Shown one piece after another: positions 15,261 through 28,212 of a DNA stretch of 64,000 nt; the first letter of the stretch is position 1, and every line of letters starts with the position of its first letter. The notes under the pieces were generated by a model that did no database searches, was not told the origin of the DNA, and saw only the letters and a program-made list of their open reading frames with translations. The DNA is taken from contig CAIIXF020000010.1 in NCBI GenBank assembly GCA_903813345.2, forward strand, positions 18,797,181-18,861,180, read 5' to 3'. This DNA is from Owenia fusiformis (lineage: Eukaryota; Annelida; Polychaeta; Sabellida; Oweniidae). A program made the translations under genes and the position numbers.

Positions 15261-15551
15261 CTACATGTAAAGACCTGGTGGAGTTGGGGGTTCTTTTTCT
15301 AAACTGGAGACAGGGGCGGATTGTGACCTTTGGAGCTTAAGTGCCCCTGGTACAGTGCAAAAACGTTTCTTGATTGTATCCTTGAATGGTTGGGGAGCCT
15401 TTTCCACGAACACTCTCACCTCTTGTCTTGCATAATCGAAATTTCCACTGGCAACAGGATCACCAGGATTAACTTTCAGCCAATCGTGAGCAGTTTTCAT
15501 CATGCCTGATATTGCCCTAGCATATTTCTTCCATGGGATGGTCAACGCTTC
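15261..15551 (-). CDS. Exon: C-terminus of the STAND protein
   Basis: The last coding exon, 96 codons and TAG, after acceptor TATTTTACAG. It joins in phase 0 to give SRYK-EALTIPWKKYARA, continuing the TPR-like helical pattern, then a proline- and serine-rich tail (SQSAPVSSLEKEPPTPPG). No clear poly(A) signal was picked out downstream. Confidence 0.8.
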   Translation of the reverse strand, partial: EALTIPWKKYARAISGMMKTAHDWLKVNPGDPVASGNFDYARQEVRVFVEKAPQPFKDTIKKRFCTVPGALKLQRSQSAPVSSLEKEPPTPPGLYM

Positions 15552-18500
15552 CTGTAAAATAGACGTACAAGTCTTTATTGAAAGAGATGTAATAGTTATG
15601 CATACATAAGATGTAATAAAACGGCAGTCAGAATCTCTTATAAGCTTGTACTTAGCACATTGAACAACTCTTTTGATATTTCAACTACAAAGCTGGTGAT
15701 ATTTATCCATAATGTTTTGCCGGCTTTTAAGTCATATGAGCATGACAGTTTTGACGTGCCATGTGTCTAAGTTATTCTGACGCCAAATTTGAAAGTTGCT
15801 GTCGCGACAATGGCATATAGTTGATGTAGCTAATCTGTTATCAAACGGCCTCGATCAATCATCCAAAGAAACAAGCATGATAGTCTGATAGTACATTGGC
15901 TTTTCTAAACGATACAAGCATAACAAAGGTAGCAATGGTTCTTACAGTATGTGATCTACAAGGCACTTTTTTCGTCGGTCTAACTAAGGCTAAACCAGTA
16001 CATTAAAACAAGCTTACCTTATACCTACTTACTGCTTCTGTGAAATCATTAATGGCAGATTGCCACTCTTTGATCGCCACATTGAACTCGGCACAAATAA
16101 GAAGATAATCGCCCCCTCGCTGTAATTTCAGCTCTCCGTGTTCTTGGTTCTTAATGTTTCTCTTCAGCGCTCCCAAACACATAATTCCATCTTTCTCAAC
16201 CTCACTGCGTTTTGACGAATTTGTTTCAATGTCCAAAATTCTCTTGCATATGAACAATAACTTTTCCCGACATATGCTACCGTGATGAGGGTCGTTTTGC
16301 ATCAATTTCAATATGCCACGCTGAAACCAACGTTTGTTGGACGTTTCCTCCAACAGTCGTTCGTACTCTTTCTTACCATCATAAAGATGACCAAGGGCTA
16401 CTTGAGGAGTTTTCTCTTCCCCGCCTTCATCCAGGTATTCAGAGTGTAGATAAAGGAGACCACTTCGTTGTGTTAGTACGGTATGAAGTACATTGATGTC
16501 TGTGCCTTTAGCAATTGCTTTCCCCAATGCATGAGCAAGTCTCAAAGCGGCAATTAGACATCTTGCTTGTTGACGATTTTTCTCTTGATGGAACTTTTCT
16601 CTGTGGTAATAGTACAGTCTGCCGTAAGCATAGAGTGTTGAGGACATTAACTCGGTAACATATATTTGTTTGAATTGTTCTTCTGGTATAGCTAAGTTCA
16701 AGCTAACGAGCTTCTTGTATGCATCTTTGGTCACTTGGTTGTGTGATCCAAGATTAGGAAATTCACGTTCTCCAACTTCTAGTTTCATCTGCTCTATGTC
16801 TGTATCATTCAACACAGTGCCAATAACAGGGCTGGCGATGTTAAAGTATTTAAGTTTGTCATAGACCATCGCAGCATATGAATCCAGGGGTAATGCCTCG
16901 CGTGTATCTAGTAGATCATCCTTTGTAGTCTCAAGGATTGTCACAAATAAATCAACCGCTCTGCTTAATCGTTCTTCAGCCAGCTCTAATTGCCCAGTTT
17001 TCGAATATGCATGACCTAGTCGATCCAGTAGGTCTATTTCTAAGAACGTAAGGGATATCTGTTCCAGTACTGGATTTTCAAGTTCACTTTCGACCCTTAA
17101 ATCATTCACTCGATCAATTGCTTTTTCTACGTGGGGAAGCAATAGCAAATTCTTTTTGTGGAACTTCATAAAGCCTGTATCTTTTGTAAAATAGCACAGG
17201 AGTGCCTTTAACAGGTTTTCGAGTGGCTTGAGTCGCGAATCGTCGTCATTGTCCTTCATAGATCGCGCTGCTAGTTGAACGAGCTCATGGATGTCTAGAA
17301 GACGAGGCTTGTCTTTCTCTTCGCAAAAGACACCGATCCAACACCTGTTTGACATTTTGTCAATCAGTTGGTTAATGCAAGACGGAATCCTGGTTTCTTT
17401 CCGTGGGTTGATTATTATCAGAAGAAGGATTTCTAGTAGGAAAACCGGAATTGCTTTTGAGTCCATGTAAGCAATGGCCTTGAGCACCAAGCATAAACCA
17501 TTGACGTCTTCCTTTTTAAAGGGTCCTTCCTTGTTTTGCAGACGCAATTCATCCATCATATTCCTCACACTCATGATGTGGGCCTTCACGAATCCCCTAC
17601 TTTTATAGTCGGGACCCAGTGCTTTCTGCGTTCTCTCTTCTACAAAGGGATTAGTATCAACATTGTTCACCTCCTCCAGGTATTTTTCAATGGTTGTTTT
17701 TTGCTTTTTGATGTCATACACTGCACACGCCAATGCGCATGGCAGGTGGCCCATCTCTGTCCAAAGCTTTACCTTTTGAGAGGAAGTCTCATTTAAATCA
17801 TCAAGGAATTCAGACATCTCCTTTTTCGTAAACCCACCTACTTCTAGAATGTCTGATGACTTAAAGTTATAGAGACGCAACTCGGTTGTAATGATGACCT
17901 TGATGTTATTAGCTGATGGGAAGTTTTGCTGAATAATGAACTGTGTTTCCTTTGTAACGTCATCAAATATAATGAAATATTCCTTTTTGATGTCTTGTTT
18001 CATTTCCTCATTCATTTCACCAAGCATGACAGATAATTGTGAATCTACTGGGCGAAATCTTTGAAACAGTTTCAGTCCATTGTACAAGTCATGTTCAGTT
18101 CTACTATGGACAGTCCATCCAACCTCAAACTTCTGTTTGTTTTCTGCCCAGTACCGTTTGGCGATTTCTGTTTTTCCGCTCCCACTGAGACCTACAAAAA
18201 ATTGAATAAATCCCTATTTATGAAGCAGAGCTCAATAGCTGAAATAACAAGTAGTTTTGAGAATGCCATAACTGACGATGATGTTCGAACCTACACTGTG
18301 CATCGGCCAGAGCCAAATCTCGAGGCCAGGCCACAGAAGAGGCTCGGGGAGTTTATAGGAAGTTGTAAAGAAGATGATGAAAGATAAGCAGGTCGAGTAA
18401 AATGTGTGGAAAAGAAGGACTATAAGATGAAAAAGATGTCTGCTGACTGTTTGATGTCAGGACATGTGTCTTTTGATTGTCTGTAACCAAAGAAAAGTCA

Positions 18501-21500
18501 CAATGATAAGAGTGCTTTTCCTGGAGGTAAGGCATTGGCCTGACATGTGCACCTGTTTAAATCCTCAGAAATAACCCAAACCCAACATATGACTGTCCGA
18601 AATCTGTTGCGATACTTTCCCTCCTCTATTGTCTTTGATTGTCGTCATCCTTTTTGGACAGATTCTATACACATTAACAAACACTATTGGTTGGGCTTAA
18701 ACATGAGCGGAATTTTTTATTCACATAACATTAGCCTATTATAAATTGCGATAAAACCGCCCTAACCCCCCTATCACACCAAACTCGTTCTTACCCGTTC
18801 TTGCCAGTCCTACGAAAACGTCGTAAAACGGGCTCAAACTGGCTGTGGTCGGGAAATATGTCTGAAATAATTAGCTTCTTCGTTCTTAAACAGTCTTCAA
18901 TACGTCCATCTCGTTCGCAGTTCGTTCAGGTCGCACCACGTCGGTGTGCAACGCCGTAGAACGCGTCCCTTAGTCTAGAAGGTCATCATGACCTGATAAC
19001 AGAACGGTATGGTCGCAATCGAATTTTGAATCGATTCAAAATTCTAAAATCACATTCCCGTCTGAGAACGTTCATAAAGTTCGTAAATAGACCTTAGAAA
19101 GTTGCAGCTACGTTCATTCCGTTCGCACACAGTTTAATACCAGTTTTGAAGAACGCAGTGGCAACTTGTTTGGTGTGATGATATTTTTGCTAACTCGTTC
19201 ATAAGCAGTGTTAAATACGTTCTTAATCAGTTTAAACTCGTTTGCAATGAGTTCTACCTCGTTCTCAACGCGTCCTCAGACAGTTCCACTCGTTGTTAAA
19301 ACGTCCCTAGTAGGATTGAAGTACGACGGTTCCGTTCGTAGTACGTCCAGCTCGTCGTTAGTATGTTGTCACTCGTAGAACGTGACGACCACGAAAACAT
19401 TTTGAGCATTGTCTAAGTTCTAGAGGACCTACCCGTTCGAGTACGTTCGACGAAGATTGTAAATAGATCCCAAACGGTTCTTAGTACGTCCAGTCCGTTC
19501 GTACACAGTTGAAGCCCGTTTTCGAGAACGTAGTGAGAACTAGTTTGGTGTGATAGTGTGATAGTATAATACAATATTAGTAATTTAATAAAAAGGGTGT
19601 GAGGGACTATGGGTTCAAAAACTTTGTTCAACTGGCAATGATTCAAAATGTACTTAAAGTCCCCGATAAATCGGGCTACGTATACCGCCGTGTTTACATT
19701 AGGGGATTAGAAGAGTTTATTTTTTATTTAGGTATGCAAGCTACGTATATCAATATTAGGCCTTCATTCATGTACTCGTGTGCATGTAATCAGCATGCCC
19801 TTCAATATTATGTAAACCAGGCTATTCAAGTAATGTATAATGTACACTATTTATGTGTGTACTACATACAATACAATTCCCTGGGGAACAAAACACAAAT
19901 ACTTTTTATATGTTCAAAATAAGCCATTTGATTGATGCAAACACTAAACAGCTTCATAAATAACATCTACAAAGTATATCTAATAGTAATTTTCAATTTC
20001 AATTGTGAAACTTCCCTGGTTACGATTATATGGGAAATCATCACGAGACGAAGATCGTTCGCCTTCCTGGCTTACCTCTGAATCGTGTACCTGGTAATCT
20101 CTTTATATAGTTTAGCGAGAGCGGTGCGCCTGCGCAGTTTTAAACTTTGGCGCACACTTTAAGGGAGTCATGAAACCAAAGAGAACAACCTGGAACGAAT
20201 GGAAACGCCATGGAAAACCAAGATCACAGGACAACCCATACTGGAGAGAATACAAGAATGCTAAAAGGGAGTTTCGAAGGGAAATACGCAAAGCACAAAA
20301 CGACTACGAATTAAAGTGCCAAAGGGAAATTGACGATGCCGCAGATCTCTCACTGAACAAGTTCTGGTATCTTATCAAAAAGCGCAGAAGATCACCGCAG
20401 AGTTCAGCCTTAATCAGAAATGGTGAAGGGGAGGTTCTAACTGAACCAACAGATGTCCTAAATGAGTGGAAACAATACTTTGAACACCTTGTATCCGACA
20501 AGATTAATCCTGAGTTCGATAATGACTTTTTATTGAAGATAAGATCGGAAGTTATGACCATGAAAACAGAAAGCTGGAGAAATGATGATGGTGCCTTTAA
20601 CGACCCAATTACATGCGATGAGATGAAAAAGGTAATATCAAAGTTAAAAATCGGCAAAGTTCCTGGATGGGACATGATCACGCCCGAGCACCTGAAGTAT
20701 GGCGGGGACGGTCTCAATAGCATTTTGACAAAATTGTATAATGCATTAATTGTAAGAGAGTACGTTCCTGAGAGCTTCAAGTTAGGAATCCTCATTCCAC
20801 TCTTTAAGGGAGGAAACAAAGATATCCTGTCAAAAGACGACCATAGAGGCATAACTTTAATGACCATGTACATGAAGGTCTTAGAAAGGATCATGATGAG
20901 CAGAAGCCAAAGATGTAAGCGAATTGACCGACCGTGTAATATGCAAGGAGTTAATGTCCCAAAATGTTCGAGCCTCCACACCTCCCTGATAACTAGAGAA
21001 GCGATATCCTCCGGGTTGGAAAACGGAAGTGACGTCATTATTGCGTCTATGGACATCCGTAAAGCTTTTGATGGGGTGTGGCACGAAGGACTCTACCACA
21101 AACTGTACAGACAAGGAATCAATGGAAAGCTCTGGAGATTACTTATCAAGTGTTACGATGGATACACATGTGCAGTAAAACTAAACATTGGTCAAACGTA
21201 TCAAACCGATCAGGTAACAGCAAATGCAGTTGGTGATAAAGACATCATGAGCAAGTCGCCCATGACAGAAGCAATGCATCACTTCCTCAACTGCAATACA
21301 AATGTGTCAAAGCCGTTCCCAGTCCAGCAGGGAGTGCACCAAGGAGGGGTTTGGTCCATGGATCTCTACGCCAGATACACTAACGAGCTTTTGAATGAAA
21401 TATGTGACACCAACAAAGGGTGCTCCATAGGCAACATTGTCTGCATATGTCCTACGTTTGCTGACGACATGAACCTATTGGCATATCACCCCAAAACAAT

Positions 21501-24500
21501 GCAGGCACTTTTAAATCACGTCTACAATTACAGTCTCAAATGGAGATTCACCTTTCATCCTAATAAATGCAAGATCACAACATTTACAAATAGGAACGCA
21601 ACACAGAAACGACTGTCTCTTAGTCTTGGACACCACAATATCCCGGTAACTACAAATATCGAACATGTAGGTCTCCCACTAACACAAAGTACATCAAACA
21701 AGGAATTTATCGATACACGAATCTCAAAAGGCAGAAGGGCGATGATAGCGTATATCGGAACAACCACAAGCAATAACAATCCCACAAATCCCCTGACAGC
21801 ATCCAAACTCTACTGGTCAATTTGTGTACCAACCATGACGTATGGATTGAACCTTCTCCCTTTGAAAGACACTGACTATGACAGAATGGAGACTGCACAT
21901 CGGAATATTGCGAAAAAATTACAAGGCTTACCACAAAGTACGAGGAACCCAGCCTGTATACAACAACTAGGATGGTCTGACTTAACGTCTAAAATTGTCG
22001 TTGACAAAATGATGCTTATCTGGCAACTTTTATCACTGCCCATTAATAGCATATACAAAGTAATCGCATTAACACGAATAATGTGCCACAGGTCTCGTGC
22101 ACTATCCAGCATTTCGCCGATAGGAAATTGTTTGAAAATTGCCGAGAATCTTGGAATCCAAAACCAAATATACGATATCATAGACACGGGAATCATACCA
22201 TCCAAAACAGTATGGAAAAGGAACATTCGATCAATAATGTACGACAAAGCAATCTGGAGTTGGAGACTAAAATGTATGATGTACACAAACATTCATTTAT
22301 ACAAGAGTGTTGTGGAATTTCAAAAGCCAAACCTATGGTGGGAAATCGCATCTCATAATAGTCAACTAGTCAAGATCTGCAAAACAATGATGCTACTCCT
22401 CACGGGAGAGGGAAATTTGAATGCAATCACATCTAATTGGGGAACGTCATATGACAAGCACAGTAGAAGTTTATGCAATGCATGTAAGTCTGAGACTGAA
22501 AACGCAAATAGTATTCCCGAAGACTGCTCAAATGAGATCAAATTAGCAATCATTTTTGGGAAAGATAAACTATTAAAGATAGATAGCTATGTAACGATAT
22601 CAAAGACGATTTATACAATGTACACTAGTAACGATAGGATGATACTCTGAAAATAAACCCAATGATTGTAAATACTGGTAGAATGAACATAACTTTTGTC
22701 ATATGGCACTATTAGAACTAGATCAGGTGTAATGTTGGGGCAGCGGTAGTACCTAAATAAGCTGACTGAGATGATCTGATCGCACTATTATATTCAAACG
22801 CATTTGTATATAGTGTATAATATGTTTTATTTTTGTCATTTATTATCATTGTAATATATTTAAAGTATGTACTCTCCAATATTAGGAGGCAATAAAGATA
22901 CATAAACAGAAATTGATTAGAATTTAAAAACATAGATGGCATTACAGTCATTCCTCCCATTAAAAACCATTTACACATATAAATAATCATTAATTGTCGT
23001 CATCCTTTTTGGACAGATTCTATACACATTAACAAACACTATTGGTTGGGCTTAAACATGAGCGGAATTTTTGATTTTTTATTCACATAACATTAGCCTA
23101 TTATAAATTGCGATAAAACCGCCCAAAAACGGCCCAACCAATAACTCAAAGCTCAAATATAGTAGTCCATGGCAATATAATTGTAATAATTATATAGCAT
23201 CATCTCATCATATAACATCATCGTCAATACATAGGAAACACACTGACTGGTTCAAACTTTTCCAATGAAATGTTCTTTGTTAGATTGTAAAATTAAGATA
23301 TTTTATTTCTACTGAGGGCATCTGATATCGAATTCCTAGAGCCTTCTATATGGACAGCTCGACAATCTATCTGATTTCTGGCACAAACAAAGAAAAGTGC
23401 TCTCACTAGTGCCATGACGTGTTTATTTTTACTTGAACCACACGACATACAAAGGTTAACTTTCCTATCAATGAGAGCATATCACGCTTTGTCCTTTTTG
23501 ATGCATAACGCTATTCTTTCAACAATGATAGAATATCAGCTAGTCTTTCATCAGAAATTCTGATTTCCATTTTCACTGAATCAATTATCATTCCTAAAAA
23601 TTCTACAACAGAGCCATCTATTGATGATACAGATACAAAATGTCTAGATACAAGGAGAGAAGAGAAGAGTGTATTCATCATCAAAGAAGCCTAGGGACAA
23701 TTGATGGGGATTAATGTAAAGTAGGATCCCGGTGAAGGATCTATGGACGACCTTTCTTACTTGACAGACAAGGGTGCTTGGAATTCACTGACACATATAG
23801 AAGGCCTTGTTCATTGACCTTGAAAAGTGGATCAAGTGGATGACTAAAGTATCTATTGCTGGCAAGTGAAATCGGTTTCAAGAGTTTTAAATTTAAAAAG
23901 TTATGACAACTTTTGTCATTTTTTCACGTTTTTGTAAATGTAAACAAAGGAGGTTGGAACCCTAAGGCTTTTTCATTATTCTATCGACAGAGATGTATTT
24001 GGTGTCTATCATAGATATCTATGTATAGAAAGTAGAATCAAGTCCCTAGAGCATGACGTGCTATACAGTATCGCTGTGCGAACTTGCTGTGAAACATAAT
24101 CTCAATTTCCGTAGGACAATGTCACCATTTTTCATGAAATGGTATGATTTATTCCGTATTAATGTCAACAAAACCACTAATACGGAACGTTGTAAACGGG
24201 ACCGTGTTAGGATATAGTATGGATTTACATAAAGTCAAGTGAAAGCAATTTCATTACCAAATTTACAAACCTACACGTACCTCTACACTTTTCCATAATT
24301 CGAATACAAATGGTTGTGAAAAGCAAGTCTGGAACGGTGTACGTTGGGTAGTTGTGCTCACCGTGATTTAGGACGGGGCAGGGCTGTTTGAGAATTTAGG
24401 ATAAGCTTGGCGTGATGGGGGTTGCACAAGGACCAAAATCAAATTTCTTACCAGACAGGACGAGTAAGTTTGAATTCTCTAGATGTTGTTTACACTTCCG

Positions 24501-27500
24501 GAAGTCGTCTGTCGGCATAAAATTGCTTATGTTCTCTGTAATGTTACTTCTGAGACCTAAAATTGAATAGTGGCTCGTAAAACAACATTCTCGAATAATA
24601 AAGAAAAAGCTAGCAATCCAGAGTTTTTACAACTAAAGTCTTACATAGGAGAAAGATCACCATGACGTCATCATATAAGTATGATTAAGTTAATTAAGTT
24701 GATTGAGTAGATTAAGTGTTGTCTATGGCATTTTTTGCTTCTTTGTTCGTTAAATTCAAAAATATTCGATATATGGAATATTTATATTCACTAAATCAAT
24801 TTTCTGTCCAGTAAAAAAACTTTTATATATTTGCTACAGCGAATTAAAGGCAGAATCAGATTTATAGGGGTTACAAAATTCCAAGCAACATATCCAATTG
24901 ACCTACCATCTATATATCCCACAAGATTCACAATATGTTATAAATTGATGAAGTTAAAATGGATTAAAAGTGCAAAAATTGGTGAAAAATGCCAAGAGTA
25001 AAATTCTCCAAAATAATAACAATTGTAACCATAGAAAAATAACATTATTTAAATGTATCACGTGGCTGAATTTCTCGTAAAGTATCGAAAAATAACGAAA
25101 TTTATCGAATGTGGCATTCGGTATTCAATATATAAATAATTTAAATACCGAATGTATATATACTAATTGAATAATCAGTCAGACTCAGTAACTGCGTCAA
25201 CATTCGAAAGGAAAATCTCAAAAATCGTACATCTTTAATTTCCAAAATAATTTGTGAGGTGGTTATTAAGATGATAATAGTACACATATTAACCCATTTA
25301 TTTTGAGTACATCTCGAATCCCTTCTCAACAAAACATTCACGAAATAAATATTCAAAATTGTCAAGTGCGAGGAATAGAAGTACGATAAAATACACTGGT
25401 CCTTTACCGATTACTTTGAGAACAAGATGAACAATCAAAGTCATATTCTTCTTATTTACTCACTGACACATGCCAACGAATGTTACATAAGTAAGTATTC
25501 CCGTTCTAAATAATTTTATTAACATTACTATCTACAGCTGCCATTTTTGTTATTGAATAACAAATGCAATATTGTTTGAAGTAAAAAATCATTTTACATT
25601 TCTTGGAAAACATCATAACTGTTAACAATTTAAGTAATTAACTAAAATGTCTACCGTGATTCCATGACAAAAAGATAGTAAATGGGTCAATTTTTATGTT
25701 CAAACTTGTTTTCACGACTTTTAAACATGAGTTAACAATGATGTAGGCGATCACATTTCCTCATGTCAGTGTGTGAACTCGTGTTTTTCACAACATTTAG
25801 ACTTTTATTATGACGGATCTCCAAAATGCATATTCCTTTTAATGAGATGATATATATTTAATAATTCCAGAGATGTATACCCATACCATAATTATTAATT
25901 AAAATGAAACATCAGGCTCGCCAGGCTAGATACTTGTACATCCTCCGTTCGCAAGGCTCCAAAACCAATCCAGATACCTTCTTTCTTTTTACAAAAGAAG
26001 GAGGTATGGATTCTGGACACTGCTTAGGAGGATGGGCTAGATAATGAACCGTTTCGACCATTGATGATTTGAGGTAAACTGTGGATATTTATGTAAATGT
26101 GAGATGGTTTGTATTCGACAGTTACACATATATTGTTAACATAAAAATGTGACCTAAATATCACTTCGTGGTCACTTCAAAAATTGTGTCGGAAGTTACA
26201 GTGGTTGGAGATGACGGAAAACGTCAATCACATCCACATATTCGAACGACGTCAAGTATTAACAATACACCTTTCGTGCACTTCGAGCAAGGAAAGGTTC
26301 TAAGATCCAGCAATAGGTATTTCATATGGAAAACTTCACATACAGGGTGTCCGGAAAGTAAAGATACAAATGCTCTAATTTCAAGAGATTTACCTTCTAT
26401 GAGATGAAATTGCTACAGAATGTGGAATGACATTATAAGAATATATCCTACAACTGCCATGACTTTTAGTTTCAAAATGAAAAAGTTATGGTTGTTATGG
26501 TAACGAGAGTCGAGGGTAAGTGGAGCAACGTCACAACTGTGTTCTGCAAATCTCTTTCCTGCTCATATGATCTTGGCACTCCACCATCTAGTCCTATATT
26601 ATATCAAATTTTGTACCACAACAGCATAAGGATTAGTAATGTAACATCATTTGATCATTTTATATTACTACTATCATTGAATATTCAGTATTTTCCCCAT
26701 TATCTATACATTATTGGTGCATCTTGACCGGCGATTCAAAGGCCTGGCAAAACCGCTGCTGTCCATCTCTCAGATTGCTGACAACATTGGCTTCCAGCTG
26801 AGTCTCAGTTGTATGTTCAACCTTTTACAAATATTGCTTTCAAATGGTCATTAAAGTAGAAGTCTAAAGAGGCTTTATCAGGTGAATATGGGGCATTATA
26901 TAGAAAGGTTTAATGTCAAGACACTCCATTGTAAGATTTGTTTTTGCTTTGTGAATTGGTGCATTGTGCAGATGCAATATTGACTTTCCTACTAATGCCC
27001 AGGGACCATTCTTCTAGGCACTTGTATAATATTTCTTTCATTATACTGGTTAGTGACATAACATAGTTCTGATATGTAGCAATGGCATCATTATATAAAA
27101 GAAAACACTATGGCAGCAATAATACAATGATTAACAAAACAAAACATAGATAGAAAATACAACAAATAACACTGTTTCAAATGGTTGTCTTTTAGCAATT
27201 TTCACTTTTGAGCGTTGTTCTGGAACTGCTCCGCATACCCCTCACATCCGTAACCATAACAACCGTAACTTAAACACATTTAGACTATATGTGACGAAAG
27301 TTGGTAGATATATTGTAATATTGTTTATCTACAATCTGTAGCAATTTCATTTCAAAAAACCCAAATTTCTTAAAATAAGAGTATTTGTATCTTTACTTTC
27401 CGGACACCCATCAACACTACGCGTTTTGTTGGATGTTACATTCGGAATAACAACTTCAAAAATATTTGCTTCAACCAAGAATTTTAGAACTTGAAATACA

Positions 27501-28212
27501 GAAATTAAGGCCATATCGTTCTTAATTGCTTCACCAATATGTTACAGAAAATAAAAATTAACATTTACGTGTTTGCAGATAGGTAAATTGAAAATAATAA
27601 ACCGGAGGTTTGTTTCAACTGTGACACCATTCTGTGTACATGTTGACGCAGTTACCGAGCCTGACCGTAATACATGCGTTAAGGAAAACAAATTGATTCG
27701 CTGCAGAGCATAAATACATGTTTAAATATCAAATGTAAATGCCAACACAAAGAAGAGGTGAAATTATTTGTCGAATATAAATTGATAGATTGGTGAAGGT
27801 TTGGCAAATTGTTTGTTTTATTCTGTTTCCAGAAGTAGCCAATTGTTTCAATCGAAGATGGATAATAAAAATAAAGTACTTGGTAAAAAGATATAAAAAT
27901 GTAAAAATCATTTTCTATTTTGCAAATTGAGCCCACTGTTACCTATAGTTTTCTGGCCTAAGTGTCGCTCTGCTACTTCACTTAAACTGCATTCGACAAG
28001 GACATCATGAAGTATGACTTTGGGATTGAAGCCCTTGAAACCTGAATACCACTTTCTTAAAATTTGGTATGATATTTCCTCAGAATGTCCCTTTAGGTCG
28101 AGCTTTAAGATGTCCATGTCCTCATCACTTATTCCTAGTTTTCTCCCAACGTTAAAGGTCTGCGGCACAATACTGTGAGCGACTTTCTGTAGCCAGATTG
28201 GTGATGTGTCTT
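15261..28212 (-). CDS. Death - NB-ARC - TPR STAND (NLR-like) protein, four exons
   Basis: Likely cytosolic nucleotide-dependent signalling switch of the Apaf-1/NLR class. The reading joins 28212-27943, 24556-24452, 18191-16018 and 15551-15261, giving about 946 residues with GT-AG introns of 3386, 6260 and 466 bp. Seen in order: a Death fold with W near the start and YQILRKWYSG; a linker ending in a beta strand; P-loop GLSGSGKTE; Walker B EYFIIFDDV; sensor-like KVIITTE; GHLPCAL in the GxP position; a winged-helix-like stretch; IHELVQLAAR in the MHD-like position; then TPR-like helices (LGHAYSKTGQLELAEERL and the C-terminal exon). By family knowledge, ATP/dATP binding at NB-ARC drives oligomerisation and the Death domain recruits partners. 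Odd: the usual TTR after sensor 1 reads TTE. An in-frame ATG at 28264, directly preceded by a stop, is an alternative start; otherwise an unseen 5' exon precedes 28212. Ligand and pathway are unknown. Confidence 0.85.
16018..18191 (-). CDS. Exon: NB-ARC core, winged helix and TPR-like repeats
   Basis: A 724-codon exon opening with GT-CTC-AGT-GGG after acceptor TTCAATTTTTTGTAG and ending at donor AAG|GTAAGC (16017). P-loop residues GLSGSGKTE are at its very start, Walker B FIIFDDV about 75 residues in, GHLPCAL about 145 in, and the MHD-like IHELVQ about 300 in. The second half is alpha-helical with TPR character (AYSKTGQLELAEERLSRAV; EFNVAIKEWQSAINDFTEAV). The first in-frame Met is not the start: the frame is open upstream to the splice site. 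Confidence 0.9.
18638..18762. repeat. Direct repeat, left copy (~125 bp)
   Basis: Nearly identical to 22993-23124, which has an extra ~7-9 bp in a T-run (GGAATTTTT). Begins ATTGTCGTCATCC and ends ATAAAACCGCCC. The pair brackets a 4.2-kb block with the CACACC element and the LINE. Confidence 0.9.
18771..19556. mobile_element. DNA element with CTATCACACCAAACT ends and GTTCG-rich interior
   Basis: Starts CTATCACACCAAACTCGTTC and ends GAACTAGTTTGGTGTGATAG, a ~15-bp inverted repeat with more dispersed inverted motifs inside. The interior is packed with CGTTC, GTACGTC and their complements in both directions. An internal GTTTGGTGTGATGAT at about 19166 suggests two elements joined or a composite. 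No transposase ORF. Confidence 0.65.
19557..20169. other. Interval between the CACACC element and the LINE ORF
   Basis: A 107-codon ORF (19599-19922) is not recognised. The last ~80 bp before the LINE ORF are GC-richer with TTTATATAG near 20100. Could be LINE 5' sequence, but no endonuclease motif was found. Confidence 0.35.
20170..22650 (+). mobile_element. Non-LTR retrotransposon (LINE) reverse-transcriptase ORF, 5'-truncated
   Basis: An uninterrupted 826-codon ORF. It starts in the basic region that usually separates endonuclease from reverse transcriptase (YWREYKNAKREFRREIRKA). The RT blocks follow: KVPGWDMITPEHLKYG, DDHRGITLMTMYMKVLERIM, SMDIRKAFDGVWH, PVQQGVHQGGVWSMDLY and PTFADDMNLL (FADD at about residues 430-433). 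After RT comes LPQSTRNPACIQQLGW and a C-terminal CNAC...C remnant of a zinc knuckle. The type resembles the CR1/Jockey-like groups, but the clade is not fixed. No endonuclease domain was seen upstream, so this copy is probably 5'-truncated although its remaining frame is open, implying a young insertion. It lies in the second intron of the STAND gene, opposite to that gene. The 3' tail has AATAAA near 22891. Confidence 0.85.
22993..23124. repeat. Direct repeat, right copy (~132 bp)
   Basis: Right copy of 18638-18762; continues beyond the shared part as CCCAAAAACGGCCCAACC, possibly the original uninterrupted sequence. Confidence 0.9.
23125..24451. other. Intron sequence of the STAND gene
   Basis: AT-rich, no ORF above 60 codons and no transposon end recognised. 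Confidence 0.5.
24452..24556 (-). CDS. Exon: short linker ending in the first NB-ARC beta strand
   Basis: A 105-bp exon that is not part of any long ORF. Acceptor CTATTCAATTTTAG and donor CTG|GTAAGAA bracket 34 complete codons plus split codons at both ends (phase 1 in, phase 1 out). It encodes a linker (NFMPTDDFRKC) and ends NSNLLVLS. Joined to the next exon this reads NLLVLS-GLSGSGKTE, the hydrophobic strand expected before a P-loop. Splicing the Death exon directly to the NB exon would leave only KTI before the P-loop. Confidence 0.8.
24557..26342. other. Intron sequence with an imperfect hairpin
   Basis: Mostly plain intron. At about 25955-26035 CATCCTCC...CCAGATACCTTCTTT pairs with AAAGAAGGAGGTATGG...GGAGGATG around a short loop, a probable small foldback relic. 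A 79-codon ORF at 26168-26407 runs into the mariner end and is not recognised. Confidence 0.4.
26343..27409 (-). mobile_element. Mariner-family DNA transposon, degenerate
   Basis: Begins CAGGGTGTCCGGAAAGTAAA after TA and ends TTTACTTTCCGGACACCC, inverted repeats of about 30 bp. On the minus strand around 26830-27000 the frames show LHNAPIHKAK and then PYSPDKASLDFYF, the mariner D-NAPxH and PYSPD-x-x-x-x-DF catalytic-core signatures. The reading frame shifts repeatedly, so it is inactive. It lies in the first intron of the STAND gene. Confidence 0.8.
27410..27942. other. Intron sequence next to the Death exon
   Basis: AT-rich, nothing recognised. Confidence 0.4.
27943..28212 (-). CDS. Exon: Death domain
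   Basis: A 90-codon exon with acceptor TGTATGCTGTTGCAG just upstream and donor GTAACA at 27942. It enters and leaves in phase 1. The Death-fold pattern is visible: SPIWLQKVAHSIV, then LGISDEDMDIL, then SYQILRKWYSG, then LVECSLSEVAERHLG. If the acceptor is not used, the frame stays open to ATG 28264-28262 and adds 17 residues; the codon before that ATG is TAA. Confidence 0.8.

Follow-up and report, generated by a model that had tools for sequence, protein, structure and literature searches.

A small conserved exon that very probably encodes the N-terminal segment of the NTPase in a Death–NB-ARC–TPR-like gene of Owenia fusiformis

The DNA analyzed here is a 64,000-nucleotide (nt) window of contig CAIIXF020000010.1 from the annelid Owenia fusiformis, labeled C10 within its genome. 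The minus strand of the window holds a predicted gene with a Death-domain exon (the Death exon) and an exon carrying the P-loop of a nucleoside triphosphatase (NTPase), referred to below as the NB exon. These two exons are separated by a gap of 9751 nt, and a short, easily overlooked open segment in this gap, the small exon, is the subject of this report. The parts of the gene are listed below in their order from 5' to 3'.

27943 to 28212, minus strand: 270-nt exon for the Death domain, phase 1-1, upstream of the small exon.
24557 to 27942, minus strand: 3386-nt intron separating the Death exon from the small exon, with an inserted inverted-repeat element at 26345-27409.
24452 to 24556, minus strand: small exon, 105 nt, phase 1-1, reading (G)GT-LRSNITENISNFMPTDDFRKCKQHLENSNLLVLS-G.
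18192 to 24451, minus strand: 6260-nt intron separating the small exon from the NB exon, lengthened by a reverse-transcriptase element.
16018 to 18191, minus strand: NB exon, with the P-loop GLSGSGKTE, the motif FIIFDDV, the rest of the NB-ARC domain and a TPR-like region.
15264 to 15680, minus strand: open frame ending at a stop, probably a 3' exon region of this gene.

A preliminary description of this DNA had proposed a 105-bp exon on the minus strand with a good acceptor, a good donor and an open phase 1-1 frame, and the letters at 24556-24452 agree with it. The acceptor reads ...CAATTTTAG/GTCTCAG (immediate context TTTTAG/GT), with the first exon base at 24556, and the donor reads CTGTCTG/GTAAGA, with the last exon base at 24452. 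The exon consists of two bases (GT), 34 codons and one base (G), adding up to the 105 nt. It contains two stops if read from its own first base and is open in phase 1. Both neighbors fit this phase: the donor of the Death exon is ATAG/GTAACA (last base 27943, phase 1), and the acceptor of the NB exon is TTGTAG/GTCTCAG (first base 18191, phase 1), while the donor at the other end of the NB exon is AAG/GTAAGC. When the Death exon (28212-27943), the small exon and the NB exon (18191-16018) were joined, no stop was found, and the protein across both junctions reads ...GQKTI-G-LRSNITENISNFMPTDDFRKCKQHLENSNLLVLS-G-LSGSGKTE.... The junction between the small exon and the NB exon thus divides the first Gly codon of the P-loop (G/GT). 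The heptamer GTCTCAG directly follows TAG at the start of both the small exon (24556-24550) and the NB exon (18191-18185); in the nearest paralog the corresponding starts, compared by eye, are GCCTCAG and GTCTCAG, respectively, and the common start is probably a coincidence. An AG inside the small exon (GTCTCAG/AAGT, 24556-24549) would shift the phase and be incompatible with the Death donor.

The genome from which the window was taken (498 Mb, 525 contigs) was searched for relatives of both exons. Including itself, the NB exon gave 11 near-full-length matches, ranging from 100 down to 34% identity, then a twelfth member on C1 whose match falls into three pieces, and further matches that were weaker or partial. 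The family is multi-copy, with near neighbors on the same chromosome, and the 11 near-full-length matches and the broken one on C1 are counted below as its 12 members. The 34-residue small-exon query returned nine places in the whole genome at E values up to 10, and all nine were upstream of a family NB exon on the same strand; that of L021, which lies beyond the 10 kb of upstream sequence, was obtained by this search. A profile built from the nine copies and run on 13 upstream loci revealed the exon in three more members (L022, E 7.4e-15; L025, E 4.1e-11; L026, E 9.8e-8). Hence, a homologous small exon lies 5' of the NB exon in 12/12 family members. Every member has a donor after the same Gly base (phase 1) and at least one phase-1 acceptor, and the exon lengths, which rest on acceptors chosen from the listed candidates, are 105, 114, 117, 120, 123 or 132 nt. 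In the alignment, inspected by eye, N-I and T15 of the small exon are retained in all 12. Among more distant relatives, one on C3 (26% identical) has a weak candidate for the small exon (E 0.013 with a profile not containing it), and the profile search found none in the upstream locus (L029) of one on C6 (28% identical). The NB frame of the C6 relative also begins at a phase-1 acceptor inside the P-loop, and two Death-like matches lie upstream of it (E 1e-8 and 1.4e-7).

Leave-out profiles were run against 2137 six-frame pieces of the window. The small exon was recovered with an E value of 1e-18 (next best piece 0.57) by a profile without the window copy, 9.1e-17 (next best 0.43) by one also lacking the nearest paralog, and 3.5e-16 (next best 0.26) by one lacking all C10 copies. 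Of 20.7 synonymous sites in the exon, 13.5 differ from the nearest paralog, and of 81.3 non-synonymous sites, 9.5 differ, giving a synonymous divergence (dS) of 1.54, a non-synonymous divergence (dN) of 0.127 and a dN/dS of 0.08 (Fisher p 1.5e-6); the dN/dS of the two NB exons is 0.15. A second close pair (L020/L021) gave 0.07 for the small exon. The 150-nt intron flanks of the same two genes are 54% identical upstream and 42% identical downstream, against a baseline of 38-48% in four unrelated intron pairs. The frame of the small exon is under purifying selection relative to the nearest paralog, and the flanking introns have diverged.

The contribution of the small exon to the NTPase domain was measured by scanning the same piece with and without it in the window and four paralogs (5/12 members), with Pfam cut-offs of 23.5 bits for NB-ARC (PF00931) and 27.2 bits for nSTAND3 (PF20720). 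The NB-ARC score of the window protein is 29.1 bits with the exon and 21.6 bits, below the cut-off, without it; the corresponding values of the four paralogs are 26.5 and 19.2, 23.5 and 17.4, 40.3 and 32.8, and 35.1 and 24.4 bits, so that the exon adds 6-11 bits in 5/5 tested members. The stop-to-stop frame 18213-16006, in which intron residues precede the P-loop, scores 23.5 bits, exactly at the cut-off. With the small exon nSTAND3 scores 31.3 bits in the window and 36.2, 30.6, 31.7 and 24.5 bits in the paralogs, over the cut-off in four of the five, and without it no nSTAND3 match was listed in any of them. The earlier statement that the domain would lack its first strand without this exon is supported by these scores. 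Gene models lacking the small exon would call the NTPase incomplete, and its omission puts 3/5 tested members below the Pfam NB-ARC cut-off; a split P-loop could in this way distort counts of NB-ARC repertoires.

An open frame bounded by AG and GT says little by itself, since the gap contains 206 open phase-1-1 AG..GT stretches of 60-199 nt. This abundance is what speaks for a chance stretch with splice-like ends that is no exon at all. The average in 100 first-order Markov gaps was 130. When a donor of the G/GTRAG type was demanded, 4 of the 206 remained (Markov average 0.61); adding a pyrimidine-rich acceptor (9/15 pyrimidines upstream) left two (0.19), and both still remained when 4 of the last 5 residues had to be hydrophobic (0.01). 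Both survivors are the small exon itself, with the alternative acceptors 24589 and 24556. These filters were picked with the exon already known, and the counts are hence a guide only. It is homology, as read from the sequences, rather than the chance count that settles the reality of the exon. The presence of homologs at the same place and in the same phase in 12/12 members, leave-out E values of 3.5e-16 or better, purifying selection and the profile gain leave a chance stretch with next to no probability, and this candidate was rejected on the leave-out profiles, the dN/dS values and the filtered stretch counts. Judged by sequence comparison, the small exon is real and conserved.

The second surviving acceptor bears on a different alternative, namely that the exon is real but begins at 24589 instead of 24556, or is preceded by an additional coding exon. 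From 24589 the frame is open in phase 1 as well, and the 3386-nt intron has room for a further exon. However, in the nearest paralog the open frame extends upstream of the 105-nt exon by just 16 nt, so an acceptor at 24589 is not conserved there. In the C12:31.72 and C2:30.46 paralogs, the Death exon and the small exon stand about 140 and 183 nt apart, respectively, and the short intron of the C12 copy leaves little room for another exon. Comparing six paralog loci with the window in all frames (E up to 1e-3) gave no other shared piece in this intron except an inserted repeat. We regard this alternative as very unlikely.

The placement of the encoded segment was examined by alignment with known families and structures. 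Of the families scanned, nSTAND3 scores highest for the joined window piece; its profile position 1 corresponds to F12 of the small exon, which carries nSTAND3 positions 1-23, and the unspliced small-exon frame alone matches positions 1-25 (E 0.09). The later part of the domain differs from nSTAND3 in scoring as NB-ARC, and the NB-ARC alignment of the joined piece covers positions 6-138 of 248. Pfam nSTAND3 run over the own genome gave two matches (C11 and C3), none of them at the small exons of the family. Against solved structures, the NB exon alone gave no match at E values up to 1. In a profile of six joined proteins, NLVVLTG fell on the residues preceding Walker A in Sr35, MLA13 and NRC3; with 6j5t, which we take to be ZAR1, the alignment was longer and started at profile position 20. 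In the window protein NLLVLS-GLSGSGKTE spans the junction, placing a predicted strand directly before the Walker A P-loop. The preliminary description had assigned to the exon the first strand before the P-loop; the sequence alignment agrees with the placement of these residues, and the exon carries more than this strand alone. The 34-residue segment is probably that strand and a preceding segment, the latter a helix.

Compared with NB-ARC/AP-ATPase proteins (PF00931; Apaf-1, CED-4, ZAR1, Sr35), the window protein shares Walker A, Walker B and the residues before the P-loop, whereas the overall similarity is weak, FMPTDD occupies the presumed position of hhGRE, and an intron lies inside the P-loop. 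The Walker B-like motif of the window, FIIFDDV, fits hhhhDD; its second part varies by eye to IFEDA in L019, IFDNV in L027 and LFEDA in the distant L030. A sequence picked out by eye in the alignment, LDIHELVQLA, may be the MHD-like motif of a winged helix. The adenine motif hhGRE is expected to precede the Lys of Walker A by about 33 residues; FMPTDD starts 29 residues before this Lys, and the GR is not retained. FMPTDD may lie in about the place of hhGRE(xE) and contact adenine. In NRC1, Val158 of hhGRExE and Lys191 bind ADP, and the Val contacts the adenine base (PMC6713354).

When the genome was searched for NB-ARC in six frames (E up to 0.1), 13 matches were obtained, 11 of them over the cut-off. 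Six begin at profile position 2-8, as expected where the strand and the P-loop share an exon. The other seven begin at 20-23, at or just before the P-loop, and include the window, paralogs on C10, C2 and C1, and the distant relative on C6. The split P-loop is probably a trait of this family and not of all NB-ARC genes of the genome.

Taken together, an animal gene of the Death–NB-ARC/nSTAND3-type NTPase–TPR-like kind very probably has a coding exon at 24556-24452 on the minus strand, most likely a constitutive one, which encodes the N-terminal segment of the NTPase. We infer that the exon is used in the mRNA and that the helix and the strand form in this protein. The small exon would provide a short piece that possibly touches adenine (FMPTDD), then a probable helix (FRKCKQHLENS) and then the first beta strand (NLLVLS). 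Phase-1 splicing through the first Gly codon of the P-loop would link NLLVLS to GLSGSGKTE, and the completed domain could serve as an ATP/ADP switch able to oligomerize the Death domains, a mechanism that we carry over by analogy from Apaf-1/NLR relatives.

Several observations weigh against this assignment. The Pfam Death model scores 20.9 bits on the Death exon (E 4e-4), just under its cut-off of 22.6, and no Death exon was found in the 10 kb upstream sequence of 4/12 members (L022, L024, L025 and L026). After the NTPase, TPR is indicated by several weak models in the open frame 18213-16006, the best with 17.1 bits against a cut-off of 25.7. The nSTAND3 alignment covers only positions 1-44 of 155. 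In the third and weakest pair used for selection (L023/L024) the dN/dS of the small exon (0.43) is higher than that of the NB exon (0.14), and the silent sites of four further pairs are saturated. Finally, all genome evidence comes from one species.

In 8/12 members (the window, L018, L019, L020, L021, L023, L027 and L028) a Death exon precedes the small exon, with order and strand kept and a possible phase-1 donor in each of the eight; the weaker matches are those of L023 (E 1.4e-7) and L027 (E 1.2e-6). At the other end, a frame like that at 15264-15680 was found 3' of the nearest paralog (59% identity across 97 residues, interrupted by one TAG).

Since the small exon is symmetric (phase 1-1, 105 nt), it could also be a regulated cassette, whose inclusion would give an ATP-binding receptor and whose skipping would give an in-frame Death-TPR protein without a working NTPase, possibly a decoy or adaptor. 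The skipped join is stop-free as far as it was read, and the exon length with the listed phase-1 acceptor is divisible by 3 in 12/12 members. A length divisible by 3, however, is what flanking phase-1 introns entail, and it adds no independent evidence. The donor in the window, GTAAGA, is strong, and the 150-nt intron flanks described above show no clear conservation with the nearest paralog. Regulated use of the exon is unlikely. The wider proposal of a family-wide splicing switch, in which the presumed adenine segment and the first strand sit on a symmetric exon and receptor activity is set by skipping, is given similarly little credence; if true, receptor activity would be set at the level of splicing throughout the family.

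Under the preferred reading of a most likely constitutive exon, the gene is an ordinary animal Death-NB-ARC-TPR-like (NLR-like) gene, and the exon is an ordinary part of this known kind of gene. Corals and placozoans have NLR-like proteins that combine Death-type domains with TPR or WD40 repeats, and the coral loci are often paired or in triplets (PMC4083563, PMC6321704). STAND NTPases coupled to TPR and other repeats are described as assembly switches (PMC8195603). The window gene resembles the animal proteins that combine Death or CARD, NACHT or NB-ARC, and TPR or WD40 in its order of a Death-type domain, an NB-ARC-type NTPase and a TPR-like region, and in its multiple copies. The available parts of the coral and placozoan accounts, to which it is likened by description only, make no mention of a P-loop intron or a separate first-strand exon. 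Among the titles and abstract beginnings searched, which included few subscription journals, none dealt with this exon or with an intron in the P-loop of an animal NB-ARC gene. A search of prokaryote genomes for relatives gave 594 stretches fitting the pattern, none of which was confirmed. Rfam gave no match at the gathering score, and no tRNA was found.

The isolation of the small exon in 9.7 kb is probably due to inserted repeats that enlarged the gap. The intron that precedes the NB exon measures 274-1315 nt in 9/11 paralogs; the other two are L019, with 9772 nt, and L021, with about 19.5 kb. In the window it contains a reverse-transcriptase frame at 20116-22650 on the plus strand (844 residues, Pfam RVT_1 78.8 bits), bracketed by direct repeats at 18632-18765 and 22987-23127 that are about 135-140 nt long and 97-98% identical; the segment 18632-23127 is an insertion in this intron. 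The element at 26345-27409, about 1.06 kb, has inverted arms of 183 nt that are 76% complementary.

Three minor observations concern the paralogs. The NB exon of L005 (G000:C12:31744190-31746370) has one in-frame TGA late in the exon, and its frame stops after 629 residues, compared with 728 in its closest relative; L005 is possibly a decaying copy. The C1 paralog matched in three pieces lies at G000:C1:45932806-45936010 and may have gained further introns. A copy related to the 26345-27409 element was found near a paralog in L035 (6493-7592).

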